From Candidatus Zhuqueibacterota bacterium (GTDB lineage Bacteria > Zhuqueibacterota > Zhuqueibacteria > Residuimicrobiales > Krinioviventaceae), in assembly GCA_016929295.1 (NCBI GenBank), contig JAFGJB010000225.1, positions 1-42,432 of the forward strand: a stretch of DNA of 42,432 nucleotides, given 5' to 3'. The translations under genes and the position numbers were made by a program. Shown piece by piece: positions 3,750-36,590 of the stretch. Each line of letters opens with the position of its first letter. Positions within the stretch are counted from its first letter, which is position 1. The notes beneath the pieces are model-generated. The model was not told the origin of the DNA. It worked only from the letters and a program-made list of their open reading frames with translations, and did not search any database.

Positions 3750-6700
3750 TTAATTTTTCGTTCGCATCTTTTGTTGCACATCCGGTTCATTTTGCAGTGT
3801 ATCTGTCCGCGTCCTGGTATCTGGAGGAGTCTCTTTATCCGTCTGCGGTGCGACCAACACATCTTTGAGCGTATCTATCTGAGTGCTCGAGTCTCTATTT
3901 GCCGGTCTTTCGAATTGCGAATTTGGCAATTCATTTAACACGGTATCTGACTGAGCGTCAGAGCCCGCATCAGTCGCTCTGTTAAATTGCGGCGCGACCA
4001 GCACATCTTTGAGCGTATCTATCCGGGCGATCGAGTCCGCATCAACCGTTCTACTGAATGGTGGCGCTGACGATTCTCTCAGCCGCCTGTCCGTTTGAGC
4101 GCGAGGATCAGCCTTGATTGTCTTGCCAAATGGCGCCGCTTCCTCGATTCTGCCGATCTTTTGCTTTGACTTTATGCGCAGAAACAACGGCGCTAAATCT
4201 TTTCCGCCAAAATCTGTCTCGGCCACATCCGGCAGTGAATCCTTGCTGACAAATTGAAACATGCTTGTGTCAAATCCGACGGTCTGCATGAGACCATTTG
4301 TCAGAACTGACGGATAGTCCATCTTGTCCTGCGTTGAATCTGACCACTGTATATCCCCGCGAATGGAATCCGCCACGAGTCGATATGGATGTCGGCTCAG
4401 GAAATCGGCATACACCTGTAACGGCTGGTCGCTATAGGCCAGGGGCATAGTTGATGTGTAATCGCCTGATTGACCTTGCACCAGATCCCACAGACGAATG
4501 GTCCCATCAGATGAGCCGGACGCCAATGTCCGACCATCCGGACTGAAGGCAACGCTCCTAGTCCAGCCGGTATGTCCCTCCAGCTGGTGGCGTTCAGTCC
4601 CGCTGGCGACATCCCAGATACGAACAGTGCCATCTTCTGATCCCGACGCCAACGTCACGCCGTCCCGGCTAAAGGCAACGCTAAAGATCCCTCCGCTCTG
4701 ATCCTCCAGGCGGCGAAGCTCAATCCCGCTGACGACATCCCAGAGACGAATGCTCTCATCCCATGAGCCTGAGGCCAATGTCGCGCCGTCAGGGCTGAAA
4801 GCGACACTTTCAATCGCACCGCTTTCACCCTTTAGGATGCTTCGTACAACTCCACTGGCAATATCCCAAAGACGAATGCTCCCATCTAATGATCCGGACG
4901 CCAATGTTCCACCGTCCGGGCTAAAGGCAACGCTGTTGACATCATCGGTATGACCCTCCAGCCAGCGGCGCTCAGTTCCGCTGGCAATATCCCAGAGACG
5001 AACGATCCTGTCAGCTGAACCGGACGCCAATGTCCGGCCATCCGGACTGAAGGCGACGCAGTAGACTACTCCGCTAGGCCCCCCCAGGCGAGCGCGTTCA
5101 GCACCGCTGGCAACATCCCAGAGACGAATGCTCCCATCATCCGAGCCGGACGCCAATGTCCGGCCGTCCGGGCTGAAGGCAATACATCTGATCCAGCCGG
5201 TGTGACCTTCCAAACGGCGGCGTTCCGCTCCGCCGGCTACATCCCAGAGACGAATGCTGCCATCTTCTGAACCGGACGCCAATGTCCGGCCATCCGGCCT
5301 GAAGGCAACGCATCTGACGTCATCAGTATGACCTTCCAGGCGGAGGCGTTCGTTAACTGCTGCCATAGCTTCACGAAAATGAGGGATGATCGGCGGCACG
5401 TACGGACTTGATTTACTTAACCACGCCAATCCCAACGAAAACATTATCAGTACACCGGCGACGGCCACCGGCAACCAGTCGAACCATGTCTTTGTCCTGT
5501 TGGAAAAAAAGCGGCGCAGCACATTTGGGACTCCTACAGCCAATCTTCGCGGTCGGCGGCCGGACATGTATGTCAGAAAGACATAATCATGCATGCCGCT
5601 CTCTTCCGGTGTGGTTTTCAGGAATTTCAAAATGCGACGCCAGTGCCGCCTTTTCAGGCCGGGGGTTCGGGCGACGTCCAGAATAAAACCCTGGCCCGGC
5701 TCTTCTATGGCGCTCTCTAATAAATCCTGCAACGCCTTACGGACTGCTGTTTCTCCTTGCCGACCCATCTCCTGTATGAGGCGCAGACGCCACCAATTCG
5801 GCATCATGCCGTACCTCAGCCACGGCAGGCGCGCCAATCTCAGCAGTCGTTCTTCGGTGATGAGCTTTTGCCCGGCGTCATCTAAGAGGCGATAGCCCAG
5901 ATAGATTGTCAAATCCCAGCCAAGCATGGGATATACGGCGCAGGCGCAGAGCCAGTAAAATCCCTCGTCTCCAAGATAGTTCATTAATTGGCGGCAGAGC
6001 TGCTCGACCTTTGCCGGTTCGGGCTCGTTTTGCTCCAAATAGAGCATGGGACGCTGCGCCAGCAGTTCAGGATATGCGGCAGCACCGTCGGCAGGGGAAA
6101 CGGAAAAGGTCAGGTTTCGCTGCATCGATTCAATGAGCACTGCCAATCCCGCTTGCGTGGCGGGCATCACCATGAAATCCTGGCCGGCCAACGCACTCTC
6201 TCGATAACCCCATTGCTCCGGGAATTCCGGCGTCAGCAGCGCCCGTTCATTCCAGTCGGAAAACTTTTCCAGCCAGCGTTGCGGTCGACCGGTGATCGGG
6301 TGCATCAGGCCGGCGCCGTCGCTAAAAATGAGCAAGCGATGGTCAGGGTAACGCATTGCCAAATCTGTCAGAGACTGGGCCGGCGCCACCGGCGTCTCGC
6401 CATAGCATGTTCGCGGATCGCCGTCGAAATAGTAACGATCGATGAACACGCCGCTTTCTTTCAGTCGGTTGAGCAGCTCGTCGGCCCGGCGCGCCTGCTG
6501 ATCATGAAAAGTCGCACGATCGACCAGCGCGAGATATTCGGGCAGCACCTGGCGGTCGCGATAAACCGGGGTGAAAACGCCTGCACGCCTGGCCGTGGCG
6601 TTCACCGTGGCGGCCGCATTCAGTTCCCGGGAGGCGATGTCGCGATGCAGGCGCAGTTGCTGAGCGGTGCGACGAAACAGCGGTCCGCGAAAAAGCTCGT

Positions 6701-7742
6701 CACTGCTCCCCCTGACGACGATGCGCTGCATCTCCGGAACCGACAAGGTTCGGCGCTTTTCCAACTGCAGCCGCCCTCTGAACCACCGCCAGATCATCCA
6801 CACGAGCAGGAAAGGTATATAGATGATAAATGAAAGAATAAAAGAGCGCAACAAACTCATACCAAAACTTGAAGGTTGTAATTGCAGTTGCTTTACTTCG
6901 AATCGATCCGCATAGTCATTGATCTCGTTCACCATCAGTCGCAATTTTTCAAGCTGAACGTCCTCTTCTCTTCTCGGAACCGGCTGCAAACGACGAAAGG
7001 CATCTGCCAGTTTGAGCGAGTCCAGCACGATGGTGGTATCAGGAGAACCGCTTTTATGCTCAATGAGTAGCGATGTCGGATTGAATTGAGGGTGATTCAC
7101 CGTCAAGCGACTGCTGCCTTTTTTGCTCGCATAGCGAAAATGAAACCGACCATCGCTAGCAGTGGTCTTTTGCTGATCCATGAATATGACGACGGCGTCG
7201 CTGACGGCTTTTATGTCGTGGGTCACGACATTTCCACTCAAGGTGAAAATTCTTTCCTGTGAGAGTATCTTAAAATAGAAAACGAGGACAATGCCCAGTA
7301 ACACGATCGTCCCCATCGCCACGCACAGCCATTGCAGATAACCGAGTCCCTTGGCTAATTCTTTGAGTCTCGCCGCCTGCTTCGGCACGGTTTCGGACGG
7401 CCTGGATCGCAGAGAAGCAAGCTTCTTTGCCGCCATTTTGAGTTTTCCGGCGAGATCCAGTTCTCCTTCCGCTGACCTTTCTACTGATGAATCCTCCATA
7501 AAGTATGGTCGCAAAGACAGCCAGCGGTTAAAGCGCTCGTAGAGTATGTCCTGTTCTTGTGGCGACGTGCAAAGGATCGGCGCCAGCAGGGTTTTCAATT
7601 TCCGGATATCCTGCGCCAGAGCGCCTTGTGCAGCCAGAGCCAGAACCAGGTCGTGCACGGCGATATACTGCTCGGTGCTAAAGTCAAATCCGCTTCGCCG
7701 CAGTTCTCCCAGAAAATCAAAAATGTCATCTGTCGTAAACAT
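3750..7742 (-). CDS. MoxR-associated membrane protein: vWA-like core and seven WD40 repeats
   Basis: Large four-part protein of 1330 residues, 9 bases downstream of the MoxR gene. The N-terminus (DIFDFLGELRRSGFDF) resembles the helical domain of MoxR-linked vWA/CoxE-type partners. A membrane segment (about 134-157), a carboxypeptidase-regulatory-like beta-sandwich (about 165-245) and a second membrane segment (about 297-320) follow. Residues about 395-510 look like a vWA-type fold (EYLALVDRATFHD, YYFDGDPRTC, LLIFSDGAGL, ALLTPEFPEQ), but the DxSxS metal-site motif reads DRATF. A third membrane segment (about 750-775) precedes seven WD40 repeats (about 794-1091). The tail holds imperfect repeats around DTLKDVLVAPQ. 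Positive-inside charges suggest that the WD40 propeller lies outside the cytoplasm. In related systems a MoxR ATPase remodels a vWA partner to control effectors. That role here is inferred. Confidence 0.88.
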   Translation of the reverse strand: MFTTDDIFDFLGELRRSGFDFSTEQYIAVHDLVLALAAQGALAQDIRKLKTLLAPILCTSPQEQDILYERFNRWLSLRPYFMEDSSVERSAEGELDLAGKLKMAAKKLASLRSRPSETVPKQAARLKELAKGLGYLQWLCVAMGTIVLLGIVLVFYFKILSQERIFTLSGNVVTHDIKAVSDAVVIFMDQQKTTASDGRFHFRYASKKGSSRLTVNHPQFNPTSLLIEHKSGSPDTTIVLDSLKLADAFRRLQPVPRREEDVQLEKLRLMVNEINDYADRFEVKQLQLQPSSFGMSLLRSFILSFIIYIPFLLVWMIWRWFRGRLQLEKRRTLSVPEMQRIVVRGSSDELFRGPLFRRTAQQLRLHRDIASRELNAAATVNATARRAGVFTPVYRDRQVLPEYLALVDRATFHDQQARRADELLNRLKESGVFIDRYYFDGDPRTCYGETPVAPAQSLTDLAMRYPDHRLLIFSDGAGLMHPITGRPQRWLEKFSDWNERALLTPEFPEQWGYRESALAGQDFMVMPATQAGLAVLIESMQRNLTFSVSPADGAAAYPELLAQRPMLYLEQNEPEPAKVEQLCRQLMNYLGDEGFYWLCACAVYPMLGWDLTIYLGYRLLDDAGQKLITEERLLRLARLPWLRYGMMPNWWRLRLIQEMGRQGETAVRKALQDLLESAIEEPGQGFILDVARTPGLKRRHWRRILKFLKTTPEESGMHDYVFLTYMSGRRPRRLAVGVPNVLRRFFSNRTKTWFDWLPVAVAGVLIMFSLGLAWLSKSSPYVPPIIPHFREAMAAVNERLRLEGHTDDVRCVAFRPDGRTLASGSEDGSIRLWDVAGGAERRRLEGHTGWIRCIAFSPDGRTLASGSDDGSIRLWDVASGAERARLGGPSGVVYCVAFSPDGRTLASGSADRIVRLWDIASGTERRWLEGHTDDVNSVAFSPDGGTLASGSLDGSIRLWDIASGVVRSILKGESGAIESVAFSPDGATLASGSWDESIRLWDVVSGIELRRLEDQSGGIFSVAFSRDGVTLASGSEDGTVRIWDVASGTERHQLEGHTGWTRSVAFSPDGRTLASGSSDGTIRLWDLVQGQSGDYTSTMPLAYSDQPLQVYADFLSRHPYRLVADSIRGDIQWSDSTQDKMDYPSVLTNGLMQTVGFDTSMFQFVSKDSLPDVAETDFGGKDLAPLFLRIKSKQKIGRIEEAAPFGKTIKADPRAQTDRRLRESSAPPFSRTVDADSIARIDTLKDVLVAPQFNRATDAGSDAQSDTVLNELPNSQFERPANRDSSTQIDTLKDVLVAPQTDKETPPDTRTRTDTLQNEPDVQQKMRTKN
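4470..5360 (-). repeat. Seven-unit WD40 repeat array
   Basis: Seven 42-residue (126-bp) units with the consensus VAFSPDGRTLASGS..GSIRLWDVASG make one predicted seven-bladed propeller. The units are very similar to those of the two STAND proteins at 16-26 kb, pointing to shared ancestry or gene conversion. Confidence 0.9.
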
Positions 7743-7751
7743 AAGCTGTAC

Positions 7752-8753
7752 TTACCTGGCTCTATCCATCCATTCTTTCAAGACGGCTTTCGATCTCTGC
7801 TGATCCTCGATTGTCTTGACGAGAGAGTTCAGAGTGCCGGCAATGCGCTCCGGCTGCTGGCGCAATGGATTTTCCAGACCATTCTTTTCGCCGATTTCGC
7901 GCAAGACCAGCAGCCATCCCAAGAGCTCTGCCGTGGCCGGCCGCTTTTGCAGGCCGCTCTCCGGCCGGCGCAGCAGATGAAAGAGATCAAGTGCATCATC
8001 GAGCAATTGACTGCTGCCGCCGGTGAACAGGCCCAGACGGGCGTCGATGATTTTTTTGAGGCGATCTTGATCCGGAAAAGGAATGTTATAGTAGATGCAG
8101 CGCCGCAAAAAAGCATCGGGCAGATGCTTCTCGGAATTGCTGGTGATGATCAAGATCGGTCGCAGCTCTTGCTGAGCCTCAATTTTGACATTTCCCAATT
8201 CGGGTATCTTGAAATACATGCCTTCGACTTCATTGAGAATGTCATTGGGGAAATCGCGCGGCGCCTTGTCCACTTCATCGATCAGCACCACAGATCGCCG
8301 GGGACCGTCATGATGAAAATCCGGCGGCAACCACGATGCGACCACCGATTTATCATTGGCGAGCAAGATCGCCAGGCCGAGCGCGTTATAGGTCAGATAG
8401 TCCAGGCTGTTCTGGCTGCCCTCACCGGTCTGCGCCGCGTGAAACCGACTGAGCGTGTCATAGGTGTAAAAGAGATCGCGCGCCGTGCTGGTCGATTTGG
8501 TCTCGAACTTGAGCGGCGGTTTGAATCCCAGCTCCCAGGCCACGCTGAAGGCCAGCTGCGTTTTGCCGGTGCCGGGTTCGCCGGTGAGCAGCAGCGGCTG
8601 GCCGAGAAGCAAGGCGACATTGACCGCATCGACCAGGCCGGAATCGGGCAAATACCTGGAGGGATCTTCGTGACCGGCGCGCTTGAATGGGGGCAGCTCA
8701 ATGGGTTTCATCTGACGTTTTTGCGGATCGCCGCTGTAAAAAGGGAATCTCAT
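7752..8753 (-). CDS. MoxR-family AAA+ ATPase
   Basis: AAA+ ATPase of about 333 residues. The Walker A motif is GEPGTGKT (residues 58-65) and the Walker B motif is VVLIDEVDKAP (from 155). It also has the sensor-type SNSEKHLPDAFLRRC segment characteristic of MoxR-like proteins. MoxR ATPases act as chaperones or remodelers of vWA-domain partners, and the vWA-like WD40 protein begins 9 bases downstream, so the two probably form one ATP-driven switch. The frame is open to a GTG at 8774, but AAGGAG at 8762-8767 lies 8 bases before the ATG at 8753. A second ATG at 8759 is only 2 bases from it. I therefore chose 8753. The N-terminal residues RYLPDSGLVDAVNVALLLGQ fit the family. Confidence 0.93.
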   Translation of the reverse strand: MRFPFYSGDPQKRQMKPIELPPFKRAGHEDPSRYLPDSGLVDAVNVALLLGQPLLLTGEPGTGKTQLAFSVAWELGFKPPLKFETKSTSTARDLFYTYDTLSRFHAAQTGEGSQNSLDYLTYNALGLAILLANDKSVVASWLPPDFHHDGPRRSVVLIDEVDKAPRDFPNDILNEVEGMYFKIPELGNVKIEAQQELRPILIITSNSEKHLPDAFLRRCIYYNIPFPDQDRLKKIIDARLGLFTGGSSQLLDDALDLFHLLRRPESGLQKRPATAELLGWLLVLREIGEKNGLENPLRQQPERIAGTLNSLVKTIEDQQRSKAVLKEWMDRAR

Positions 8754-8761
8754 AGTCATTG

Positions 8762-8767
8762 CTCCTT
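8762..8767 (-). promoter_or_regulatory. Ribosome-binding site that decides the MoxR start
   Basis: AAGGAG in the minus-strand message lies 8 bases before the ATG at 8753, favouring it over the GTG at 8774. Confidence 0.6.
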
Positions 8768-8792
8768 CATGCACTCATATTTTCACTCGCGT

Positions 8793-10304
8793 TCAACTCT
8801 GATATTCCTTCAAAAGTGTCCTTAACTCTTCTGCGAGGTACTCCATGGACAAACGCTCCTTTATACCCTGTTCATAGAGCGCTCGAATTTCGCGGAACAG
8901 TTCATCAATTTGACAGAATTGCTGGGCATGTTCATGGACCCATGTGAAAACTTCTGCTTGTGAAATTGATAAAAGCTCAGGCAGAACAATCCCCTGCACC
9001 TTGTCAAATGAGTTGAAATCAAGTTGCGTCAAAAAATGGCGAATTGCTTTGTTCAACCTCTTGTAACTGCGCCGGCGCCAAAATCCCTTCCCAACCGACT
9101 GCTGATAACCGATCGATATGCAAAAAATCAATACTTGCTCCCGGCTGTAATCAGGGAAATCATTCCAGAACTTTAAAAAGGCGCTCATCAGCTCCGGGCC
9201 AAAAGCCTCCCAGTTATCTGTGAACATGTCCGTTTGGATCATGATCGGTTTTTTCGTGCTCTTGATCGCCGTCTGCATTTCTTGAGGGGAAGCTTCGCTA
9301 TTTCCCAGCAATGCCTTTGCCAGACAACCCCGGACGCGATCGCCAATGAATTGCCGCGCACGAATGCTTGTCGGCCATTCCGCCACCTTTTTTTCTACGC
9401 CGCCATCCTCATCGTTGAGACCGAGAAGCTTTGGCAAGGTTATCTGGTGCAGCCGCATCAGGTACATATCATGACATTCATCTTCGTTGCCATGAATGAA
9501 GCAGACGAGAGGTCGCGCCGGCTTTTCTTTTTGCAAGTCGTTGAGCGCACGCCGGAGCTCCGCCTCCTGGCCGCTGCGGTCGCTCAAATAGGGCAATAGC
9601 TGCGGAATTGGCACGGGCTTTGTCAGCTCATCGATGGTGGGCAATTTCCACCGCCACGCTGCGCCGCCTTCTTCAGGATACAGCACCCACGGCCAGCCTT
9701 CTTTCTCGGCGGCTTTTTCTTTGTATAAATGGCGAGGATTATTTCCTTTTGCCGATTGAATATCGGCTACCGCTTCACTAAACGCTGTGCCAATGCAGGC
9801 GCCGCTGGCCAGACCCTTGTGAAATCTCGCGGCAAAGTCCGCTGCGACCGCATCGTCAATGTCCTGACTTGTGACAATGACCGCGGGAATGCCGGCCTCG
9901 AGCAATCCTTGTGCCTGTTTCTCGGTCGAGCAGCCATTGAGAAAAACCAATTGCAGACCACGCTGCTGCGCCAAAAAGGCAGCCAGTCCTGCAGCATGAA
10001 CGGGCTGCGGGCTGCCGCCCGGCGATTCCGCCAGGATCTGAAAACTGCCCGCATGGCCGCCGTAGTGAAAAATGGCGATTCGATCGCGATATTCCTGAAA
10101 AATATCGAAAATCTCCTGGCGCGTGGCGTTTGCCAAAGGCACAATATCGCATAATCCCGACCACCTGGCACTCTTTAAGGCGGCTTGAATCTGGCGGCTC
10201 TCTTCCGGCAAATTTCGTAAATAGCGGGTGCCGTTCTGCCTATCTTGCGCAAAGGCTAAAAAGATGACCGGCCTGGCGCCGGTGGGGTAAGGCGATTTCG
10301 GCAT
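8793..10304 (-). CDS. CHAT protease with C-terminal inactive-STAND-like domain
   Basis: The N-terminal 200 residues are a CHAT (caspase-like) protease. The catalytic His is in FHYGGHA (H84) and the Cys is in FLNGCST (C125). The C-terminal part begins with a segment (RPLVCFIHGNEDECHDMYL) resembling the degenerate P-loop region of 'inactive STAND' domains, which lack the Walker lysine. The rest is helical with no recognised motif. This pairing suggests a protease regulated through NTPase-like oligomerisation without its own ATP hydrolysis. The gene lies 39 bases upstream of MoxR, so it is a candidate effector of the MoxR/vWA-like switch. The frame is open to a TTG at 10325. I chose the ATG at 10304 because GGAAGG (10318-10323) precedes it and because the other CHAT proteins here also begin about 10 residues before the PVI(V/F)LAF strand. 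Confidence 0.9.
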   Translation of the reverse strand: MPKSPYPTGARPVIFLAFAQDRQNGTRYLRNLPEESRQIQAALKSARWSGLCDIVPLANATRQEIFDIFQEYRDRIAIFHYGGHAGSFQILAESPGGSPQPVHAAGLAAFLAQQRGLQLVFLNGCSTEKQAQGLLEAGIPAVIVTSQDIDDAVAADFAARFHKGLASGACIGTAFSEAVADIQSAKGNNPRHLYKEKAAEKEGWPWVLYPEEGGAAWRWKLPTIDELTKPVPIPQLLPYLSDRSGQEAELRRALNDLQKEKPARPLVCFIHGNEDECHDMYLMRLHQITLPKLLGLNDEDGGVEKKVAEWPTSIRARQFIGDRVRGCLAKALLGNSEASPQEMQTAIKSTKKPIMIQTDMFTDNWEAFGPELMSAFLKFWNDFPDYSREQVLIFCISIGYQQSVGKGFWRRRSYKRLNKAIRHFLTQLDFNSFDKVQGIVLPELLSISQAEVFTWVHEHAQQFCQIDELFREIRALYEQGIKERLSMEYLAEELRTLLKEYQS

Positions 10305-10317
10305 TGTTTTAACTGTG

Positions 10318-10323
10318 CCTTCC
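10318..10323 (-). promoter_or_regulatory. Ribosome-binding site for the CHAT/inactive-STAND gene
   Basis: GGAAGG lies 13 bases before the ATG at 10304. The spacing is long but still better than no site ahead of the TTG at 10325. Confidence 0.45.
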
Positions 10324-10454
10324 AATATTTGTGAGTCTTTGGCGATCGATCCGTTCTTGCCATTCTTCGGCAGATACTAAAGCATTTTGCATGTCATCCG
10401 TCTTGCTGCCGCTGAATGACGGATGCATCACTAACCTGAAAAATTCACCCGAAT

Positions 10455-10504
10455 AAAGACACCAGGACTCCAAAAGCCATGATTCTTTGTGACCTGGTGT
10501 CTTT
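10455..10504. repeat. Hairpin between the caspase and CHAT genes
   Basis: AAAGACACCAGG (10455-10466) pairs perfectly with CCTGGTGTCTTT (10493-10504) around a 26-base loop. It sits in the only sizeable gap (235 bases) inside the 14.1-3.75 kb run and could attenuate transcription, or it may be a dispersed palindrome. No U-run follows on the minus strand. An open frame through this gap (stop near 10309) has no ribosome-binding site. Confidence 0.6.
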
Positions 10505-10539: not shown

Positions 10540-13500
10540 TCAACCATGCAAAAAATCAGCCACCGCCTTGATCGCCGATTGCGAAGTAAGATAGGAAAAA
10601 TGATCGCAATCCACAACCTGCACCTTTGGCATGGGGTTGCGCTCCGGCTTGAGCAACGCCACCGTCTCGGCGCTCTTGACGCTGACCACCGCGTCATTCG
10701 GCTGCATGCCGAATTCCAGCGAGATGATCTTGTATACCGTCTTTTTGGAGAAAAAGGCTCTCGACAGCCGCACAAAAGCATTGGCAGACGAGTCCTGCCC
10801 GCGTGCGTCCTTGATTTGCCCGGTGCTGCCGGCGATGACCAGGTAAGGGATCATCGGATCCACACTGCTATTGATGTCAACGATCAAGTCTGATTTCGGC
10901 TTGAGCTGGTCCAGCGTCGTATCCACCTTTTCGAGCCCGGCGATGGCGGCCGCAATAAAGGCCACCGCCTTGACGATCATTGCCGCCGGATTTATCAAGG
11001 TGAGCAGACCATTGAGCCCGAGGATGATGAGATTTCTGGCGTATTGCTGCAGCACAGCCATCGGCGTGCCGCTGTTGGGCGCACCCAGCATGACCAGACG
11101 CGAGGCAATCTCGTTGCCGCCTTCGCGCTCGATGAACCAGCGACAGACCAGCGTGCCGAGATCGCTGGCAATGACGTCCAGCGTCTTGCCGTGTCCCGCC
11201 GCCAATCCGACCTCTTCGAGGCGCTCCTTGAGTTTCGCGGCGCTGTCCTGAATGCGCGTGTTGATGTTCTCGTAATCAAAGGTCAATATCAGATCGTATT
11301 TCTGCAGCTCCGGCGCCTGCTGCTGCTGTACCGCGATGCCGGCGACCATTCTGCGCGTGTCCCCCAGCATGCCGTGCACCAGCAAAAGGATGCGCTTCGC
11401 TCGCGCCACGCAGTCGCGCACATGCGTGGTGGCGCCTTCGTCATAACTGACCGCCCCTTCACTGCAGGTCGCGATTCGCAGCCGCGGGTAGGGATCCTCT
11501 ATGCCGATGGCCTTGGCAGCCTTTTCCGGGATGAGCTTGAACGCCAACATCAACAGCGACCCTTTGACGTCTCTTTCGCCGGAATCCATTGGCCTGGGCA
11601 GTTGATCCACCCGAATGTCCGCGCCGCCATTTTTGGCATAGCCGTAACCGACCGGCACGTACATGTCATTTTCCGGGTCATAGCTCACCAGCAGCACCGA
11701 TTCATTCTTTTTTAGCGTCTGAGAGGTATGAAACAGCAGCGGCGATTCGGGCGTCACCTTTTCGATGTCGGCGGCATCATCCAGCAGCAGCTCGATGCCG
11801 TTTTGGCCATGTTCCGCAGCGCGACTGGGAGAAAATTCGAAGGGCTCGATGAGCATGGGCGCACTGCGCAGCACGGGCGGGATGTTGCGTTTAATAGCTC
11901 CACGCGCACTGGCATCGGTTTGTCTTAACCGAACCTTGACCTTTGCTTTGAGAGCGGGATGTCCAGCGATCTGCACTTCTCCTCCGACGGGCGCCACCCC
12001 GCCTTCCTCCGGCACAGCGACGACATCCAGGGGCCAATGAATGATGATGCGGCTGGCAATGGTCATCCAGTCGCTGAGGAGATCGTCTACACCGGCCTGG
12101 TCGCCGACGCCCCGCATCGAGATGCGCCGCATCAGGCGGCCAAGTGTGGATGGCGGCGCCGGCTCACCCGCCGCTCTTGATACTCCTCGAGATCTCACCA
12201 TCTCTAGATCATCTTGTTCAAACAGTGCGGGATTGATTTGATCGCTGCTCACAATGATCTTTAGAATATCGGTCAATTTATCGATTCCCTGTTGGCGAAT
12301 CCTTTTCGGGATGGCCGCCGGGATGAGAGGAGAGTTATTATAAAGCACCGGTACCGATGCCCCGTCCATTCCTTTTGGCGCCAGCTTGATACATGAATTT
12401 TGATTCAGACCGGCCGTTTGTATGCCGAACAATTCAGTCAGGTCAAGGATGGCGCAATAGAGCACCTGGTCCGTTTCGTTGTGCAAGGTCAATTTGAACT
12501 GCGGGTGTTTCCCGCTGTTGTCGTTGGCGTAATGTAAATTCAATTCATGACCCGTCACAGACCGCTCGACCTGTTTTCCATTGATCATTTCCACAGCTTT
12601 AAATTCGAGGCGGACAGCGTCGACGGGCAGCTGCGAATTTTTGTTCTCCAGATTGGCGATGCTGAACCAGCGCGCCACATGAGCCAATCGCGCCACTGCG
12701 CTCACGGCGTCGTCTGTTTGAATGGTCAGCGGATAAGCATCGGCAATGCGCCGGATATCATATTGATGCTCCTTTGCCGTCAATCTCAAGGTCGCCAGAC
12801 TTTCATCGTTGGTCTCCTGCACGACGAGTGGGATGTCATCACCCACCTCCTTCTTTGCCAGCTCATCGCGAACGGCCTTGAGCATAGCCGGATCGCCGTC
12901 AAAATAAACCTGCAGCGGCGGCAGAGGATGACTGACCACGGCTGCGGCAAAGGTTTGCTCTTTGTTCGCCGTTTGCTTCAAGCTATCCAGAACAACGAGG
13001 CTCTCTCCGGCCGTCACTTTTTGCACCTTTGCATAGCCGATCCCATCGCTCATCTTTCGGCCGGCAAACGGCGCAGCGCGTCTCTTCTTCTGCTCTTCGA
13101 AGGGAAAGAGCGCCAACCGGGTGGTTTCATTGCCGATAGGAGCTTGAATGCCGTGCATGGCGCCGGCATCGAGCAACCAGCTGGCGTGCTCGTCGCTCCA
13201 GTTCACCTGATAAATAGCCCGGCGTGGCCGTATGGCGCCGTCGAGGAAATAGGCATTTTGGTCCTGGGCCTCAACCGATTCAATCTGCGGCGTCTGGCTC
13301 GCAATGGCATTTTTCACTTTTTGCGTCGTCAATGTATGCAAATCATGATAGGTCAATCCATGACCACTTCTTTTGAGAGCGTCCAAAAGGTAAAAGGAAA
13401 AAAGCCCATGCCTTTCACCGCTCTCCCCTATATTGCGCTCCTTTGCCGTTTCTTCCGCCCGACAGGCGGCCAGCAGAATATGGCGTCCCTGCGGCGGCAC

Positions 13501-29555: not shown

Positions 29556-29561
29556 GATCCA

Positions 29562-32390
29562 CTAATCGCTCCGAGGATTTCTGCAGGAGCGATGAAAAGC
29601 GGCGATCATCCTGTTGATGGCTTTTTCATCCTGCAGCGAATGGTGACTCACAGGATCGCCTGAGGATGGAATGGCCCAGGCCAGAAAATCATCTTGCAAA
29701 AAGTAATATTTTATCAGGAGCGATCCGCGTGCAAGTCTGCGCTGCACGTCCTGCCTGGACAAAATGGGCGCTTGCGTCCTTACCGTCTGGTAAAATCCCG
29801 GCACAGAGTGGATCAATTCCGCTTCGATCCGCTCGAGCTCGTCGCTGCCGGCAGCAATCTGCCGGCTGATATGGTCGATCTGTTCGGCATCGGCATTCGA
29901 TTTACCGCGTTCCAGTGCTGACAAACCTCGCCAGGCATTGATTTGCGCATTCAGCTCACGCCAGCGCTTGAGCGCAGGATTCTCCGCCGCGAAACGGCCG
30001 CGAAAAACGGCATTGGCAGCCATCAAATCCAGCAGCGCACGGGCTTTGGCGCGCTCTGCATAATTGAATGCTTTTTCCACAAATGCGTCATCATTTTTCG
30101 CCATGCCGCCGTTTTTTTCCGCGGCTCGGCAAGCGGCTCGGGCTGCTTGAAAGTAGAGGTACTGGGCGCCCTGATCCGCTGCCAAAGCCGTCTTCAATTC
30201 ATCTCTGCTGAGCAGATGCCGGCGCTCTTCGAGGGCGGTGATCGCTTTATCATAGTATTCCAGGGCAGTCGAATAGTCTTTTAATCCCTCATAGAGTTCG
30301 CCGCAATCGCTCAAATCCAGCCATGGACGTTCACCAGCACATTGCCAATCGGGGCCGGCAATTTTATCCAGTTGATCCAAAAATTCTTTTGCCGAATCAT
30401 ATGCCTTGATTCGCACATGAAAGCTCAAAGCCTGCTCCAGCGTGCGGCGGTATTGCTGTCGCGCCTCCTGTTCACCGCCTTCACCGCCCGCTGATTTCAG
30501 TACAGCGGCCAGTTGTCCCATGGAACCGGCATCGACGCCTCCCAGCTCCATATAATGCTGAAAAGCTTGTCGCGCACTATCATATTGTCTCATCTGGCCA
30601 TAGACGACCGCTTGCAACCAGGACTTGTTTTCTTCCAAGTCGTTTGTAGCCATCAACGCCTGATTAAAAAAGCGATCAGCTTGAGACAGGTCACCGTTAT
30701 CACGGGCGTGCTTTCCCCGATAGAACGGAACAAGTACTTGAGCTTGTTCGACGGTCGTTTTGATCATGGTGAATAACGCTATTTTTTCAACGCCCTCGGT
30801 GGCTGATAAAACCTTTTGATCGCTCAAACGCCGTGCGCACCGCTCCATGCCGTCAGCTTCGAGCTCTTGCAGATAAAGCTGATAGACTTGATTGGCAAGC
30901 ATGATAAATGTCGGGGATAAGCTTCCGGCCAATGCTGTGGATTGTGAGATGACCAGGGTGAGCATATCCAGTGATTGCTCGTACAGGGTGAGAGCCGTTT
31001 TTCGATCACCGATCGTCTGATAAACCGCCCCTTGATCGACGACTGATTTGATGGCATTGAACGTCGCGCCGAGGGATTTGTAGAGCGATTCGGCAAGGCG
31101 ATAGCAGGCGAGAGAACGTTCGGCATCACCGCGACGAATGAGCCAGTGGCGACCCGCCCGACCGATGAATAATCCCAATCCAAGCGCATAGCTGTAACTG
31201 CCCGCACCGGCCCCCCAGACGCCTGTTTCTTCAGCCAAAGGTTGGAGATCGCTAAACGTGCCGGTGCCGACGCGCGCGAGCAATTGATGCGCCAGTGCCA
31301 GGTAATAGGCAAATCCATCACCGGTATCGAGGGCGTATTGAATGGCTTGCTGGATATGTCCTTTCGCCTGGACAAAATCGTTTTGTATCATTGCGAGATA
31401 GCCATAGCGAAGATACAGTTGCGCCAATCCTCTTGGCGCTTGAGCCTGTTTGAAGAAGATTTCAGCTCTTTGATAATCTTGCAGCGCCGCCGGAACGTCG
31501 GCGCCATCCAGGTTGAATTCCGCTGCCTCTGTGGTCCAGGCTAAGTCACTGCCGAACGAATTGCCTTCCTGAACGGAGAAATTCCACACCAGCGGCGAAC
31601 TGAACGGTGCGCATCGCCAATCACCCCACGTCATGTGGCAGAGCGCCTGACCAGCAGCATCGTCATTTTCAGAATAAACAGCCAGAGCCTGGTTGAGAAA
31701 ATCCTGGCCCATTTCCATTCGTCGAGCGCGTTTGCAGAGATCAGCGCAGGCCCACAAGGCGTAACCATTCCACCCCGAGGGGGCGTGATAATATTTAAGG
31801 TCGCTTTGGATGGTCGCTATGCTTTGCAGGAATGAATCAAGAATTTGCCGGCAAAACATCTCTGATCGGTAATCCATGGATTGGATGACGGAACGCTGCG
31901 ATTGCAGTCCAGTGAGAAGATGAGCCAGCAGCGTATAGTCGGCCTTTGCCGACGCCGCCTTGCGAAAGAATTCCTCCTGCAGTGGTTGGTATTTGTTCCA
32001 GAAGGTATTGCCATCCCAGCGCGCGGCGATTTCAACGCCATTGGCGCCGGCGCGATCCGGGAACAGGTTAAAGCGCCACATCTCAGCCAGGATATTATGC
32101 GCCAGCGCCCTGAGCAGCAAATCGCTGTCGGCCTCAGAAGAGTTATAACACTTTTCAAGGTATTCCATGGCTTTGGCAGGTTCGCCGCCGAGCAGAGAGA
32201 TGACTCCTTCTATATAAGCAGCTTGGGCGGCGAGGCGAGTGACATCCTCCCCCGGCAATTGCCGGACGGCGGCGGTTGCGCGCTTTTTCGTCTGGGAGAA
32301 ATTCCCCTTGTATTCTTCATAAATGATCGCATCATTGAATGCTGCATCTTGAATTGGATCTAGAAATTTCACACATCTCTCCTCAGTCAT
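29562..32390 (-). CDS. TPR part of an amber-interrupted TPR-CHAT protease
   Basis: 942 residues ending at TAG. It is made of helical tetratricopeptide-like repeats throughout, with clear units such as DYSTALEYYDKAITALEERR and AFNYAERAKARALLDLMAAN. The second of these is the usual junction helix just before a CHAT domain. The residues before the stop (LIKYYFLQDDFLAWAI) already form the first strands of the CHAT region, so the protein stops inside the domain. TPRs in such proteins bind the partner or substrate. The ATG follows GAGG by 8 bases. If the stop is real, the island makes a TPR-only product that could act as a decoy or scaffold. Confidence 0.85.
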   Translation of the reverse strand: MTEERCVKFLDPIQDAAFNDAIIYEEYKGNFSQTKKRATAAVRQLPGEDVTRLAAQAAYIEGVISLLGGEPAKAMEYLEKCYNSSEADSDLLLRALAHNILAEMWRFNLFPDRAGANGVEIAARWDGNTFWNKYQPLQEEFFRKAASAKADYTLLAHLLTGLQSQRSVIQSMDYRSEMFCRQILDSFLQSIATIQSDLKYYHAPSGWNGYALWACADLCKRARRMEMGQDFLNQALAVYSENDDAAGQALCHMTWGDWRCAPFSSPLVWNFSVQEGNSFGSDLAWTTEAAEFNLDGADVPAALQDYQRAEIFFKQAQAPRGLAQLYLRYGYLAMIQNDFVQAKGHIQQAIQYALDTGDGFAYYLALAHQLLARVGTGTFSDLQPLAEETGVWGAGAGSYSYALGLGLFIGRAGRHWLIRRGDAERSLACYRLAESLYKSLGATFNAIKSVVDQGAVYQTIGDRKTALTLYEQSLDMLTLVISQSTALAGSLSPTFIMLANQVYQLYLQELEADGMERCARRLSDQKVLSATEGVEKIALFTMIKTTVEQAQVLVPFYRGKHARDNGDLSQADRFFNQALMATNDLEENKSWLQAVVYGQMRQYDSARQAFQHYMELGGVDAGSMGQLAAVLKSAGGEGGEQEARQQYRRTLEQALSFHVRIKAYDSAKEFLDQLDKIAGPDWQCAGERPWLDLSDCGELYEGLKDYSTALEYYDKAITALEERRHLLSRDELKTALAADQGAQYLYFQAARAACRAAEKNGGMAKNDDAFVEKAFNYAERAKARALLDLMAANAVFRGRFAAENPALKRWRELNAQINAWRGLSALERGKSNADAEQIDHISRQIAAGSDELERIEAELIHSVPGFYQTVRTQAPILSRQDVQRRLARGSLLIKYYFLQDDFLAWAIPSSGDPVSHHSLQDEKAINRMIAAFHRSCRNPRSD

Positions 32391-32586
32391 ATCGGCCTCG
32401 TTTGCCGCAAAGGATTGGATGAGAATGAATCATAATGCTTAAAAAGAACGAGTGCGAGCCGAGCGATCAGCTATCAGCTCTCAGAATAAATTTAAAAAAA
32501 CCATATAATCTATTGCAGTTGTTTGGCTTCACATCCAACTGAATCCTCGAGTACTCACTACCTTCAATTGACGTGCTCTCCTCCTT
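32391..32586. other. Gap between the CHAT remnant and the TPR-CHAT gene
   Basis: 196 bases with no gene, no clear hairpin and no match to the dispersed repeats. A few bases past the remnant's stop, codons for KESTSIEG still echo the CHAT paralogues (KEESTAIED). Confidence 0.5.
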
Positions 32587-32730
32587 TTACACCAGGATGC
32601 GGCCCTGCTCGTGATGCTGCAGCAAGGTGCTGAAAATATTTATCTCGTCCCCGCCGATCATCGCGAGATGTTTGTCCTGATCGTCGGCAAAAGCCAATAC
32701 GATGACGGATTTTTGTTTGGTCTCGTTCAT
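32587..32730 (-). pseudogene. N-terminal fragment of a CHAT protease gene
   Basis: An ATG at 32730 opens 47 codons (beginning MNETKQKSVIVLAFADDQDK) that match the first strand and helix of the paired CHAT proteins (MSATNLKPVIVLAFANDQDN). TAA at 32587-32589 ends the frame exactly where the paralogues read ILVHKEEST; here ILV-stop-KEST. The catalytic His and Cys regions are missing. It lies 14 bases after the stop of the TPR gene, in operon position. It is most simply a decayed third CHAT copy. Confidence 0.8.
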
Positions 32731-32744
32731 ACAATGCTTTTGCG

Positions 32745-35534
32745 CTACTTGTCTCTGTTTATCACCGTTTTTAGATCGGCCTCAACTTGCCGCAGCGCCG
32801 CGAGAATCGCCTCCCGACCTTCTTTGATTTCTATGGCGGCGAGGAGCTGCAACAGCCAGTCGCGGTAATGCGCCAATTGCGGCTCGACGCTGATATAGTG
32901 TTTCGTGCCCTCGAATGACCAACCGACTTGCAAAGTGTCGGGCTGGGCGGCGGCGGTTTGCTGCAGTGTTTCCAGGGTGGCCGGAATTCTTTGGATTTGC
33001 TGAAGCGCGGCGAAATTGGCGATTTGAATGGCGCGCAGCGCGATTTGGCTGCTTTGCTTAATTTCTGCATTGGTCAATAGTGCGGCGAGGCGTTGCTCGC
33101 ACTCTGGAAAACGACCGCTGGTAAAATGCTTTTCGGCAAAATCGCATTGGGCGGACAGATCCTCGGGATGGCGGCGCAGCCAGTTTTCATTTAACGCAAA
33201 AGCCGAAGCATAATCCGCCGGATATTGATGTAACACTTCATGATAAAGATAACTGGCAGTTTGGTAAGCTTGTTCATGATCCGGATAAACTTGCAGTACA
33301 TTGGCATAACAGAGAGCGACGTTGGGCCAGTCTTCAAGTGCGGTATAACTTTTAGCGAGATTGTTTTGGCTTTGTGCCCAATCAACCGGCAGCTGCTCAA
33401 AGGTTCGTACTTCAAGTGATGCTTTGAGCGCCGCCACCGCTTGCGCCAACAACGCCGCGCCGGCTTCTCCGCCGCTGTGAATGCCCTGCTCAGAAAGCGC
33501 AGTCCCCAGATTGTTTTGCGTCATCGCCCAGTCTTGCGGCAATTGCTCGCGGGTATAAACCTGCAAGGCATTTTGGTACGCCGCCACCGCTTGCGCCAAC
33601 AATGCCGCGCCGCCTTCCCCGCCGGTGCGAATGCCCTGCGCTTTAAGCGCATTCCCCAGGTTGTTTTGCGTGGTAGCCCACGGTTGCGGCAGTTGCTCGC
33701 GAGTATAAACCTGTAAGGCATTTTGGTACGCCACCACCGCCTGCGCCAACAATGCCGCGCCGGTTTCCCCGTCAGTGCGAATGCCCTGCGCTTTAAGCGC
33801 AGCCCCCAGATTGATTTGCGTAGCAGCCCACTGTTGCGGCAGTTGCTCGCGGGTATAAACCTGCGAGGCATTTTGGTACGCCGCCACCGCTTGCGCCAAC
33901 AATGCCGCGCCGCCTTCCCCTCCGGTGCGAATGCCTTGCGCTTGAAACGCACGCCCCAGATTGTTTTGCGTGGTAGCCCACTGTTGCGGCAGTTGCTCGT
34001 GGGTATAAACCTGCAAGGCATTTTGGTATGCCGCCACCGCCTGCGCCAACAATGCCGCGCCGCCTTCCCCGCTGGTGCGAATGCCCTGCGCTTGAAGCGT
34101 ATTCCCCAGATTGTTTTGCGCGGCAGCCCACTGCTGCGGCAGTTGCTCACGGGCATAAACCTGCAAGGCATTTTGGTACGCCACCACCGCCTGCGCCAAC
34201 AATGCCGCGCCGCCTTCCCCGCCGGCGCGAATGCCCTGCGCTTGAAGCGCAAGCCCCAGATTGTTTTGCGTGGTAGCCCACTGTTGCGGTAGTTGCTCGC
34301 GGGTTCTCACCTGCAAGGCATTTTGGTACGCCACCACCGCCTGCGCCAACAAGTCCGTGCCGGCTTCCCCGCCGGTGCGAATGCCCTGCTCTTGAAGCGC
34401 AGTCCCCAGATTGTTTTGCGTCATGGCCCAGTCTTGCGGCAGTTGTTCGCGGCTATAAACCTGCAAGGCATTTTGGTACGCCGCCGCCGCCTGCGCCAAC
34501 AATGCCGCGCTGGCTTCCCCGCCGATGCGAATGCCCTGCTCTTGAAGCGCGCTCCCCAGATTGTTTTGCGTTTTAGCCCACTGTTGCGGCAGTTGCTCGC
34601 GAGTATAAATCTCAAATGCCTCGCGGTAGGCTTGTTCAGATTCTTTTAAAAAAATGGCGGCCTTGGCTCCCTCGCATCGAGTGCCAATATCTTGTTTGGT
34701 ATTGCCGATAAAGATGCGAATCTCGGCCCATTCGCCGGGAAAATCCTCCCTGGGAACAAGGGCGCTCGCTTTTTCATACTTGGTCAAGGCCTCGGCAAAT
34801 TGATAAACAGTGGATAAGGAGTTGCCCGCATCTTTGCGGTTTTGGTAAATTTCCAAAACTTTCTGCCGTCGCGCCTCTTCAATTTCTTTCAATTCAGCTT
34901 CGCCCTCATCGGCCGCTTCGTCAAAATACCGCGCTGCCAGAACAAAGTTTCTCTGGTAAAACTCGCGCAAAGCTTTCGTTCGTTTATCTGTCGAGTCTTT
35001 GACCGCGCTCGCCCATTGATCAAAGGCGGCCTTCACCTCTGCCGGCTTGAAGCCGTATTTGTCCGCCCACTCGCTGATGTAATAGGAAAAGTCAACTGGT
35101 TTAGGCTTGTCGCCTTCCTTCTTTAATTTGGCGATTTCGTCGGAGAGCAGGGCAATGTGCTTTTCAATGCGGGCATGCGTCCACAGCGCTTTGGAGCCTT
35201 TGGGCACGATGATGACTTTGGTGTATTGGGTGGACGCCTCCTGCCATTTTTTGGCGGGCAGATTCCATTCGCCATCGAGCGGATGGTTGATGAGCCAGTC
35301 TTTTTTGTCAACGACAAGCAGGACGCGCTCGCCTTCGATGAAATCCAAAGGGAGCTTGATGCTGAACTGGCCTTTGGAATCGGTGATATCACCGGGCCCG
35401 GCGGTTACGCCAATCCTGGTCGCGGGCACAGGTTTTTCGGCGTCGGTGAGCAGGTTGCCATTGAGGGTGATTTGCGCTTGCGCGGCCGTCAACCATCCGC
35501 AGCACAGCAGCAAAAATAATCGCGTGCGCTTCAT
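32745..35534 (-). CDS. Secreted TPR protein with beta-sandwich domain and eight 50-residue repeats
   Basis: 929 residues. A signal peptide (RLFLLLCCGWLTAAQA, cut near residue 20) is followed by a carboxypeptidase-regulatory-like beta-sandwich (about 20-110). A linker with coiled coil comes next. Eight near-identical 50-residue TPR-type units (REQLPQQWATTQNNLG, then QGIRTGGEGGAALLAQA and AYQNALQVYT) and one divergent unit (VDWAQSQNNLAKSY) follow. A further helical TPR region reaches the end. It is probably a periplasmic or surface protein. The ATG directly follows the TGA of the membrane CHAT gene, and GGAGG lies inside that gene's end, so the two are translationally coupled. The shared beta-sandwich supports a physical pair, with this protein as an extracytoplasmic sensor or ligand. 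Confidence 0.9.
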   Translation of the reverse strand: MKRTRLFLLLCCGWLTAAQAQITLNGNLLTDAEKPVPATRIGVTAGPGDITDSKGQFSIKLPLDFIEGERVLLVVDKKDWLINHPLDGEWNLPAKKWQEASTQYTKVIIVPKGSKALWTHARIEKHIALLSDEIAKLKKEGDKPKPVDFSYYISEWADKYGFKPAEVKAAFDQWASAVKDSTDKRTKALREFYQRNFVLAARYFDEAADEGEAELKEIEEARRQKVLEIYQNRKDAGNSLSTVYQFAEALTKYEKASALVPREDFPGEWAEIRIFIGNTKQDIGTRCEGAKAAIFLKESEQAYREAFEIYTREQLPQQWAKTQNNLGSALQEQGIRIGGEASAALLAQAAAAYQNALQVYSREQLPQDWAMTQNNLGTALQEQGIRTGGEAGTDLLAQAVVAYQNALQVRTREQLPQQWATTQNNLGLALQAQGIRAGGEGGAALLAQAVVAYQNALQVYAREQLPQQWAAAQNNLGNTLQAQGIRTSGEGGAALLAQAVAAYQNALQVYTHEQLPQQWATTQNNLGRAFQAQGIRTGGEGGAALLAQAVAAYQNASQVYTREQLPQQWAATQINLGAALKAQGIRTDGETGAALLAQAVVAYQNALQVYTREQLPQPWATTQNNLGNALKAQGIRTGGEGGAALLAQAVAAYQNALQVYTREQLPQDWAMTQNNLGTALSEQGIHSGGEAGAALLAQAVAALKASLEVRTFEQLPVDWAQSQNNLAKSYTALEDWPNVALCYANVLQVYPDHEQAYQTASYLYHEVLHQYPADYASAFALNENWLRRHPEDLSAQCDFAEKHFTSGRFPECEQRLAALLTNAEIKQSSQIALRAIQIANFAALQQIQRIPATLETLQQTAAAQPDTLQVGWSFEGTKHYISVEPQLAHYRDWLLQLLAAIEIKEGREAILAALRQVEADLKTVINRDK
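33402..34601 (-). repeat. Eight tandem 150-bp repeats encoding TPR units
   Basis: Exact 150-bp period, for example matching segments at 33552 and 33702. Units differ at only a few positions and several differences recur between units, consistent with recent expansion and gene conversion. The array can change length without shifting frame. Confidence 0.93.
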
Positions 35535-36590
35535 TCATTCCTCCAAAACAAGTTTGGCGGGCCCGGGAAGGGTGACGTATTCATTATGGAGCAGACGCCC
35601 CTGTTGATAAATGTAAATCCTCACCCGCTCGTTGATTTTTCCGGGAATCTCGGCAAAATAAAAACCGCCAAAGCTGTCGGTATATGTGGTGTCTCTTTGC
35701 AAACCTTCCGCGATGATCATGGCGTTGGCGAGAAACTCGCCGTCACTGTTTTTCACCCAGCCGCCCAAAGGGGTGGTGGCTATTTCCTCATGAGAAGGCG
35801 GATTGGCAGAAAAGTACTTGTCTCGCAGTTCCGTCAAGCCGAGAATGATCGCCAGAATGCCGCCAATCAATCCCACCCAGGTCTGCCAGCGCTCCAGCAA
35901 TGGCTTTTTCGGTGGAGTCGACAGATCGTCTGCCGCTTCCGACAGGCGCCAGGCGCGCGCTTCGTCATAGTCCTGTGGATAAAGCTGCCATGGCCAGCGG
36001 TCGTCATGTCCCGCGCCTTCCATATACAAATGCCGCACGTCATCGCCCCTCTGCGTCCGCACCGCTGCGGCGGCTTCTTCATACGCTTCGCGAATGTTGT
36101 CGCCATTGCCCAGGCCTTTGTAGAACAGCGCCGCAAAATCGGCGGCCACCGCATCATCGATGGCTTGCGATGTGGCAATCACTGCCGGCACCTTGTTGTG
36201 CAGCAATCCCTGCACCTGCTGTTCCGTGGAGCAGCCATTGAGAAAGACCAGTTGCAGACCGCGCTGCTGTCCGAGAAACGCGGCCAGGCCGCCGGCATGC
36301 GCGAGTTTGGTTTTGCCTTCCGGAGATTCGAGAAGAAGTTGAAAGCCGTTGGCATGTCCGGCGTAATGAAAAATAGCAATGCGATGGCGAAAGCGCCGAT
36401 CCTGAAAAACCTCGATGATCTGCTCGACCGTCGCATAGGGCAGGTCTTGAACCTCGCATAACCTGGCAACGTCGCTGTTGCGCAGAATGCCGCACAGCTC
36501 ACGGTGCTCATCCGCCAGCCTGGGCAGAGGATGGGCCGGATCATTGGCAAAGGCCAGAAGGATGACGGGTTTGGCGTTGGTTTCTCGCAT
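35535..36590 (-). CDS. Membrane-anchored CHAT protease with C-terminal beta-sandwich
   Basis: 351 residues. The CHAT domain has PVILLAF, catalytic His79 in FHYAGHA and Cys120 in FLNGCST. Its sequence is closer to the CHAT of the inactive-STAND gene (FLNGCSTE, AVIATSQAIDDAVAADFAA) than to the STAND-paired CHATs. A membrane segment follows (about 238-253, VGLIGGILAIILGL) and then a carboxypeptidase-regulatory-like domain (about 275-351). With the protease inside, the C-terminal domain is outside the membrane. AAGGA precedes the ATG. It is the first gene of the run that continues to 3.75 kb, and it is coupled to the secreted TPR gene. A cross-envelope sensor-protease pair is a reasonable reading. 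Confidence 0.92.
   Translation of the reverse strand: MRETNAKPVILLAFANDPAHPLPRLADEHRELCGILRNSDVARLCEVQDLPYATVEQIIEVFQDRRFRHRIAIFHYAGHANGFQLLLESPEGKTKLAHAGGLAAFLGQQRGLQLVFLNGCSTEQQVQGLLHNKVPAVIATSQAIDDAVAADFAALFYKGLGNGDNIREAYEEAAAAVRTQRGDDVRHLYMEGAGHDDRWPWQLYPQDYDEARAWRLSEAADDLSTPPKKPLLERWQTWVGLIGGILAIILGLTELRDKYFSANPPSHEEIATTPLGGWVKNSDGEFLANAMIIAEGLQRDTTYTDSFGGFYFAEIPGKINERVRIYIYQQGRLLHNEYVTLPGPAKLVLEE
35540..35544 (-). promoter_or_regulatory. Ribosome-binding site inside the end of the membrane CHAT gene
   Basis: GGAGG lies 5 bases before the ATG of the TPR gene and within the last codons of the CHAT gene, whose TGA touches that ATG. Confidence 0.65.

Follow-up and report, generated by a model that had tools for sequence, protein, structure and literature searches.

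Does an island in which seven caspase-fold protease loci lie together on one strand form a single machine? The question is raised by the window, which is the whole 42,432-base contig (C343) analyzed here, from a Candidatus Zhuqueibacterota genome of 4.34 Mb in 367 contigs. All genes of the island are on the minus strand: a caspase, five CHAT protease genes, a CHAT remnant, two nSTAND1 NTPases, a MoxR ATPase, WD40 and tetratricopeptide (TPR) scaffolds, and a GH19 enzyme. A sequence-only reading had listed these parts and suggested one protease cascade or network; Pfam and motif searches recover every part on the list, a TM scan and Pfam add what it lacks (an inactive STAND domain on one CHAT, a DUF7379 region on the caspase, and several hydrophobic spans), and the comparative analysis leaves the island a composite for which the single-network reading is partly supported. 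At its center is a pair of genes, CHAT-X and a sensor-bearing nSTAND1, that recurs in a second phylum. Judging from sequence comparison, we regard it as an even bet that the composite is an immune-type lysis locus in which this CHAT/nSTAND1 core would be combined with a caspase-hydrolase and lysis-type effectors.

The CHAT-X/nSTAND1 core

The genes on which the argument turns occupy the middle of the island.

10540..14142, minus strand: caspase with a DUF7379 alpha/beta-hydrolase-type region (Peptidase_C14 91.8 bits; H and C motifs)
14207..14935, minus strand: protein with an N-terminal transmembrane (TM) segment and a coiled coil, weakly Rz-spanin-like (PHROGs spanin 22.6 bits, E 1.7e-4)
15207..15953, minus strand: predicted GH19 phage-type endolysin (Pfam 43.8 bits; PHROG endolysin 212 bits)
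16014..20477, minus strand: nSTAND1-TM-WD40 protein, copy b, 20 repeats used (Pfam, TM scan)
20493..22259, minus strand: CHAT-X copy b, a CHAT protease with an extra C-terminal domain (CHAT 29.6 bits)
22325..26824, minus strand: nSTAND1-TM-WD40 protein, copy a, 20 repeats used (Pfam, TM scan)
26821..28572, minus strand: CHAT-X copy a (CHAT 37.3 bits)

The C-terminal domain of CHAT-X spans about 350 residues and has no Pfam match at E <= 0.1 in either copy (20493-22259 and 26821-28572). The best solved match, SAVED-CHAT (8tl0), covers the CHAT part only, and CHAT and caspase folds make up most of the fold-search list. A plasmid search returned three records, each matching the CHAT part only, and viral contigs scanned with the caspase and CHAT-X alignments contained no relative. 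A scan of named genomes yielded five CHAT-X relatives (Aminicenantes, two Saprospiraceae, Chitinophagales, and Lewinella), and the sample was widened to 396 genomes of the order that includes G083, a Bacteroidota genome carrying one of the Saprospiraceae loci. CHAT-X was found at E <= 1e-60 in 26 of these, at 43 places; besides the named loci L011 and L013, these comprise 41 places in 40 regions, which together with the five named loci make 45 annotated loci.

An nSTAND1 gene lies directly downstream of CHAT-X, on the same strand, in 43/43 outside loci with downstream sequence; in L012 and L014 the contig ends before the downstream gene. The same adjacency is seen in the window, G075, and G080, which are the three home-phylum genomes with a full CHAT-X (3/3). 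Catalytic His and Cys are retained in 39 of the 39 CHAT-X sequences that reach those columns (40 aligned, one truncated). The 40 Bacteroidota loci reduce to 30 clusters at 70% CHAT-X identity, some loci being near-duplicates. The sensor attached to the switch varies, with WD40 in the window, TPR in L113, and, in L126, a CarboxypepD_reg-like part (just below the cut-off) in a separate subunit. The CHAT-X and nSTAND1-sensor pair is the core of the island and a conserved module. In the window this module is present twice, and the two CHAT-X copies are sisters on the tree, as are the two nSTAND1 copies, whose Pfam scores are 150.1 and 149.2 bits and which both keep Walker A and B motifs.

An unlikely alternative is that the island reflects ordinary defence-island clustering, with a CHAT/nSTAND1 system, an iSTAND ternary system, a caspase, and GH19 gathered independently. 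The invariant pairing of CHAT-X with nSTAND1 argues against this explanation, to which we return as the evidence requires.

Three variants of the switch were encountered. In L126-L129, nSTAND1 is apparently split: after a 355-residue NTPase gene come short genes, two or three in number, encoding the nSTAND C-terminal half with differing ends, and then a caspase. This arrangement resembles a single switch whose sensor subunits can be exchanged. In G079 (L061:1-3498), an N-terminal caspase replaces CHAT on an nSTAND1-TM-WD40 protein (71 bits), and L067:5196-7859 encodes a CHAT-nSTAND1-TM protein ending in an Lcl_C domain.

Caspase-hydrolase and lysis-type effectors

The region following the caspase domain is assigned to DUF7379; since the copy in G076 also exceeds the Abhydrolase_1 cut-off, the region is interpreted as an alpha/beta hydrolase. 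The caspase-hydrolase gene is found on the CHAT-X contig in 3/3 home-phylum cases (window, G075, and G080). Among the 40 Bacteroidota CHAT-X loci, a profile search detected a caspase in the retrieved flanks of 12 (129 bits or higher), with weak matches in two further loci (L136, 42 bits; L138, 40 bits). Matches to the caspase-hydrolase are near full-length in L120, L123, L144, and L147, and Pfam scans of two of them, L120 and L147, both confirmed DUF7379. Against a density of 19 caspase matches in 32.3 Mb (five genomes behind L010-L014), 0.4 genes would be expected in the 673 kb concerned, and 8 of the 30 clusters have one (P ~4e-10, with clusters treated as independent, the density taken from five genomes, and defence-island clustering ignored). 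Caspases thus appear near CHAT/nSTAND1 pairs in Bacteroidota more often than expected by chance, which lends comparative support to a cascade and makes it plausible. This much of the single-network reading survives; the seven protease loci do not make up a single conserved network. Caspase enrichment in a second phylum likewise counts against independent gathering of defence genes, whereas the 26-28 of 40 Bacteroidota loci with no caspase in the fetched stretch, some of which end at contig ends, are in its favor. Two genomes have guanylate-cyclase/TPR proteins close to the caspase-hydrolase gene (L120:8965-11199 and L123:2254-4485).

In the home phylum, caspase and GH19 profiles were built from the window, G074, G075, and G076. 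The GH19 profile finds 6/82 genomes at E <= 1e-20, and GH19 shares a contig with a full-length caspase-hydrolase gene in 6/6, at gaps of about 0.1, 0.1, 0.1, 1.0, 4.0, and 7.0 kb. The caspase profile at the same threshold finds 7/82 genomes, namely the six GH19 genomes and G080. This linkage, too, is unfavorable to independent gathering. The window GH19 gives 160 bits against the PWe2 endolysin (PDB 9ms7) and 55% over 73% of the query against the endolysin of Myxococcus phage Mx1, with 1757 phage records matched in all; by these comparisons it is phage-endolysin-like. The notion that the enzyme is dead, a catalytic residue having been lost relative to its relatives, was dropped: the PWe2 endolysin, when aligned, shares this short form.

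Could GH19 instead be a secreted weapon or a nutritional chitinase, unrelated to the proteases? Chitinases do belong to the GH19 family and relatives of the window protein have lysine-rich tails, whereas the TM scan finds no hydrophobic export segment, the closest matches are phage endolysins, and the caspase linkage holds in all six genomes; we consider this explanation very improbable.

Other genes around the caspase are also of envelope type or, in one case, nuclease-like. In G080, which is listed with 9% contamination, an Exo_endo_phos (EEP, nuclease-like) gene stands between two STAND genes in the slot that GH19 occupies elsewhere (31.5 bits, cut-off 24.5). The coiled-coil protein at 14207..14935 has a homolog in G079 (177 bits), where a one-strand run comprises a TM/coiled-coil protein (TMcc), a PG_binding_1 protein, the caspase-hydrolase, a histidine kinase, GH19, and the caspase-nSTAND1-WD40 protein. 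On contig C158 of G080, a homolog of the PG-binding gene precedes the end of the caspase. Among the Bacteroidota loci, L148 has a patatin lipase between the caspase and CHAT-X, and in L147 a caspase-subtilase protein adjoins the caspase-hydrolase.

A phage-type endolysin with a spanin-like neighbor would also suit programmed lysis that serves ends other than immunity, such as kin recognition or the setting free of particles, DNA, or goods. The LypABC system, which is tied to gene transfer agents, is a precedent, and the sensor repeats vary at surface positions (see below), as in fungal non-self genes. Among 18 window open reading frames (ORFs) scanned by Pfam, no phage structural gene was recognized, and effector swapping with a patchy distribution is typical of conflict systems; such a non-immune role seems to us improbable.

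The second switch, the WD40 repeats, and the island setting

Downstream of the caspase lies a second type of NTP-driven switch.

3750..7742, minus strand: vWA-type partner of MoxR, with an N-terminal region, TM, CarboxypepD_reg-like part, TM, vWA-like core, TM, and 7 WD40 repeats
7752..8774, minus strand: MoxR-type AAA+ ATPase (Pfam AAA/AAA_5, Walker A and B)
8793..10325, minus strand: CHAT protease fused to an inactive STAND (iSTAND) domain (CHAT 41.1, iSTAND 54.5 bits; cut-off 24)

These three genes are adjacent, with gaps of 18 and 9 bases. A pattern search finds no Walker motif in the CHAT-iSTAND protein (8793-10325). The MoxR P-loop is GEPGTGKT rather than the GXXXTAKS variant, and a MadB-like match of 65.9 bits is far under its cut-off of 475. 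In the vWA-type protein, CarboxypepD_reg scores 18.9 bits, below the cut-off. The structural model of its core, in which residues 69-216 are Rossmann/vWA-like, is of low confidence (mean pLDDT 54.9) and has no Foldseek match at E <= 0.001; a second search with this low-confidence model ranks a CheY-like receiver first (3kyj; Z 9.6, root-mean-square deviation 2.8, 117 aligned) and includes a vWA domain (8fz4; Z 8.7, root-mean-square deviation 3.1, 125 aligned). Homologs of the vWA-type core occur at five loci in 3/5 genomes behind L010-L014. In Bacteroidota, MoxR is upstream, on the same strand and within 0.8 kb, in 4/4 of the loci having that flank. The gene before MoxR encodes EAD11-iSTAND in L103 and L104; in L101 it encodes EAD11 and in L102 TIR, neither with an iSTAND match. 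Within the home phylum the iSTAND model detects only the window genome (1/82), although divergent iSTANDs may be missed. The triad was added to the island, and the rarity of the iSTAND domain is among the points that favor defence-island clustering.

The two switches are connected by their sensor repeats. The 60 WD40 matches in the genome belong to the three island proteins and to a distant nSTAND1-TM-WD40 protein on contig C310, whose nSTAND1 domain is 21-23% identical to the island copies. Among the 47 island repeats compared (20, 20, and 7), identity is 0.606 within and 0.601 between proteins, a difference reached in 406/2000 shuffles, and identity to the C310 repeats is 0.365-0.371. Third-base identity at shared fourfold codons is 0.56-0.65 among island repeats vs 0.38 to C310. 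The vWA-type protein has its WD40 repeats, and not its remainder, in common with the STAND proteins. The vWA-type and STAND proteins thus appear to draw their repeats from nearly one pool, which counts against independent gathering in a defence island. Recent tandem duplication alone was rejected as the cause of the likeness, given that arrays a and b are non-colinear (mean 0.592 at offset 0; range 0.543-0.640 over offsets -10 to 10). Full pooling is ruled out by slight clustering by protein at the DNA level (0.704 within, 0.691 between; 1/2000 shuffles) and by nearest neighbors, which are mostly in the same protein (29/47 by protein and 33/47 by DNA, with 17.4 expected). Pooling is therefore incomplete.

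In the Podospora NWD genes, WD40 codons 7, 9, 25, and 27 are under positive selection (PMC1805685). Once the repeats are numbered as in Podospora, with conserved residues 8 and 26 as anchors, positions 7, 9, 25, and 27 of the island repeats rank 1, 4, 2, and 15 of 42 in variability (entropy) and form 46 distinct combinations in 47 repeats. The ratio of nonsynonymous to synonymous differences (pN/pS) at these codons is 0.79, 1.45, 1.93, and 0.86, with high pS, and positive selection on the repeats was not upheld, synonymous differences being many. Mean repeat identity within proteins is 0.60-0.64, under the 85% level of high internal conservation; under the definitions given in PMC5587647, they count as moderately, not highly, repetitive arrays.

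Hydrophobic spans are found by TM scan in the vWA-type, STAND, CHAT-TM, and coiled-coil proteins. A single TM separates nSTAND1 from WD40, with 6 Lys/Arg residues before it and 2-3 after, and in the vWA-type protein the charges around the three TMs fit an outside location of the CarboxypepD-like and WD40 part. The WD40 propellers are accordingly predicted to lie outside the inner membrane.

The upstream end of the island contains the remaining protease genes.

28647..29555, minus strand: CHAT half of a split TPR-CHAT gene (228 bits; in-frame TAG)
29562..32390, minus strand: TPR half of the split TPR-CHAT gene (Pfam; frame common with the CHAT half)
32563..32730, minus strand: CHAT remnant (50 bits, internal TAA)
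32745..35534, minus strand: TPR protein with an N-terminal hydrophobic (signal-like) segment (repeat scan, TM scan)
35535..36590, minus strand: CHAT-TM-CarboxypepD-like protein (CHAT 35.9 bits; CarboxypepD 17.1 bits, below cut-off)

All five CHAT genes exceed the Pfam cut-off of 24 bits, and a motif pattern check finds the catalytic His and Cys motifs in each. The interruption of one CHAT gene and the presence of a CHAT fragment, both proposed from the sequence alone, were borne out: the TPR and CHAT halves share a frame with a TAG between them, and the fragment at 32563-32730 retains a recognizable match with a stop inside it. These broken genes are among the points in favor of defence-island clustering. 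The TPR protein (32745-35534) is built from a 150-bp unit in 7.9 copies with 88% matches, giving 8 repeats of 75% mean amino acid identity, and abuts the CHAT-TM gene with zero gap.

A search of the whole 4.34-Mb genome gives nine CHAT matches, of which five are on the 42-kb window contig; this concentration is not due to chance. In the 11 genomes searched, the number of CHAT matches ranges from 2 to 37 per genome. Conservation of gene order, which the sequence-only reading had proposed to check, is not found: the order is not fixed between genomes. Scattering, which would have spoken against a single unit, is seen for the extra CHAT genes and not for the core. Both the variable order and the many CHAT matches elsewhere are consistent with defence-island clustering.

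Between 7743 and 37089, none of the listed terminator-like sites on the genes' own strand falls in a gap between island genes, but such sites are near chance level. Promoter-like sites on both strands number 23 in 22200-41500 vs 15.4 (standard deviation 3.8) in shuffled sequence; in 7700-22400 such sites are close to shuffled means, as terminator-like ones are in either stretch. Of ten proteins submitted to PADLOC, the caspase (112.5 bits) and the TIR protein described next (45.1 bits) match best; matches for MoxR and one nSTAND1 part are weak, and six proteins have none.

Beyond the island, a same-strand gene at 40350-41432 encodes TIR with an FGE-sulfatase domain (C-type-lectin-type fold); FGE folds are diversified by retroelements in other systems (PMC10907252). 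Between this gene and the island are a CehA/McbA-like metallohydrolase (37090-38967; 69 bits, cut-off 80) and an amidohydrolase (39007-40017). At the downstream end, 455-2710 encodes a CotH kinase protein with an FlgD-type tail, and the islands of G074, G076, and G077 contain large proteins with a C-terminal part in common with it.

Proposed mechanism and known systems

Domain content, linkage, pairing, effector swap, and repeat sharing can be read from the genomes compared, and they suggest how an immune-type lysis locus might operate. WD40 propellers outside the inner membrane would bind an invader or non-self ligand, upon which nSTAND1 would change state and assemble with its partner CHAT. 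CHAT could then cleave and activate the caspase, and the caspase or its lipase-like region may open the membrane, free the endolysin, or both, so that the wall would be cut and the cell lysed. The CHAT-iSTAND/MoxR/vWA-type triad would be a second switch that may feed the same effectors.

Several observations weigh against this scheme. Full CHAT-X is present in only 3/82 phylum genomes, and CHAT-X is absent from 9/9 other family members. The search profiles came from four linked genomes, which leaves G077 and G079 (with G080 for the caspase) as the only additional ones, and the six GH19 genomes represent two families and three genera, four of them in one genus, and are not independent. No GH19 was detected in the 45 CHAT-X loci (1169 ORFs; E <= 0.01) or in the five source genomes of L010-L014 (E <= 1e-5); given its absence from the Bacteroidota CHAT-X loci, the endolysin looks lineage-specific. 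GH19 has no export segment by the TM scan, no holin was recognized among window ORFs of at least 120 residues, and the spanin PHROG matches, found in two homologs, are weak and may reflect coiled-coil bias. The caspase Cys is kept in 10/10 aligned copies, the His in 8/10 (missing from G075 as called and from G080, which is cut by a contig end), and the hydrolase motif HSMG in 9/10, the window copy being the one that keeps caspase His and Cys and has lost the aligned HSMG serine motif. The placement of the propellers is based on charge counts only, and linkage as such could reflect defence-island clustering.

A more specific version, which we consider doubtful, is that the locus would be an apoptosome-like lysis machine, with shuffled, outward-facing WD40 receptors, a CHAT-to-caspase cascade, and a domesticated phage lysis cassette (endolysin, spanin-like, and lipase-like parts), and with the same core joined to other envelope-attacking effectors in the second phylum. 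If true, a lysis enzyme captured from phages would be under the control of caspase-fold cascades, so that what is a weapon of phages would serve bacteria as a suicide effector; two NTPase switches of unrelated kinds would take their sensor repeats from a single pool. The CHAT-X/nSTAND1/caspase core is found in two phyla, and CHAT-X/nSTAND1 is also present in an Aminicenantes genome. The core is small enough for heterologous expression, which would open bacterial protease cascades outside CRISPR to direct testing.

Among the titles, openings of abstracts, and passages from a literature search that covered few subscription papers, no account was found of the CHAT/nSTAND1/caspase core or of a caspase-linked GH19 endolysin. 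The components are of known kinds and their combination appears to be new. The closest counterparts of the triad are the iSTAND ternary systems (Kaur et al. 2020, PMC7159879), which have CHAT-iSTAND, MoxR, and vWA-type genes in the same order, an N-terminal caspase-like domain on iSTAND, and a TM in the vWA-type protein. The window vWA-type protein differs by its C-terminal WD40 array from the local STAND pool; homologs elsewhere have an FGE-type domain in 3/5 and a WD40 match in 0/5. Beta-propeller ternary systems often have the MoxR GXXXTAKS motif that is lacking here, and no VMAP model is among the listed Pfam matches (best 25 rows for the WD40 proteins). Peptidoglycan attack, by EAD1-linked lysozyme-like effectors, was already predicted by Kaur et al. 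(PMC7159879).

The type III-B CRISPR proteolytic cascade of SAVED-CHAT (Steens 2024, as described in PMC11229360) has the same CHAT fold and protease cascade logic. It uses a cyclic nucleotide, whereas the window has an NTPase switch and envelope-aimed effectors; a SAVED domain was found in none of the five window CHATs by Pfam and in none of the four scanned by PADLOC. The canu loci, which encode a caspase-activated nuclease (PMC12799240), similarly link a caspase to an effector gene. Here the effector is an endolysin (an EEP-type gene in G080) and STAND and CHAT are added; no MBL-fold nuclease was found in the 18 window ORFs scanned by Pfam. In Podospora NWD/HET-E (PMC1805685), repeats are common to several receptors, and the most variable window positions include 7, 25, and 9; the window repeats, at ~61% mean identity, fall below the 85% of fungal high internal conservation (PMC4986451). 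LypABC (PMC13236601), a CARD-NLR-like hub for protease-dependent lysis and gene transfer agents, has proteases and an ATPase switch governing lysis, as proposed here. Its peptidases are trypsin-like, and its authors report no holin-endolysin homologues in its genome; the window, like a phage lysis cassette, has an endolysin.

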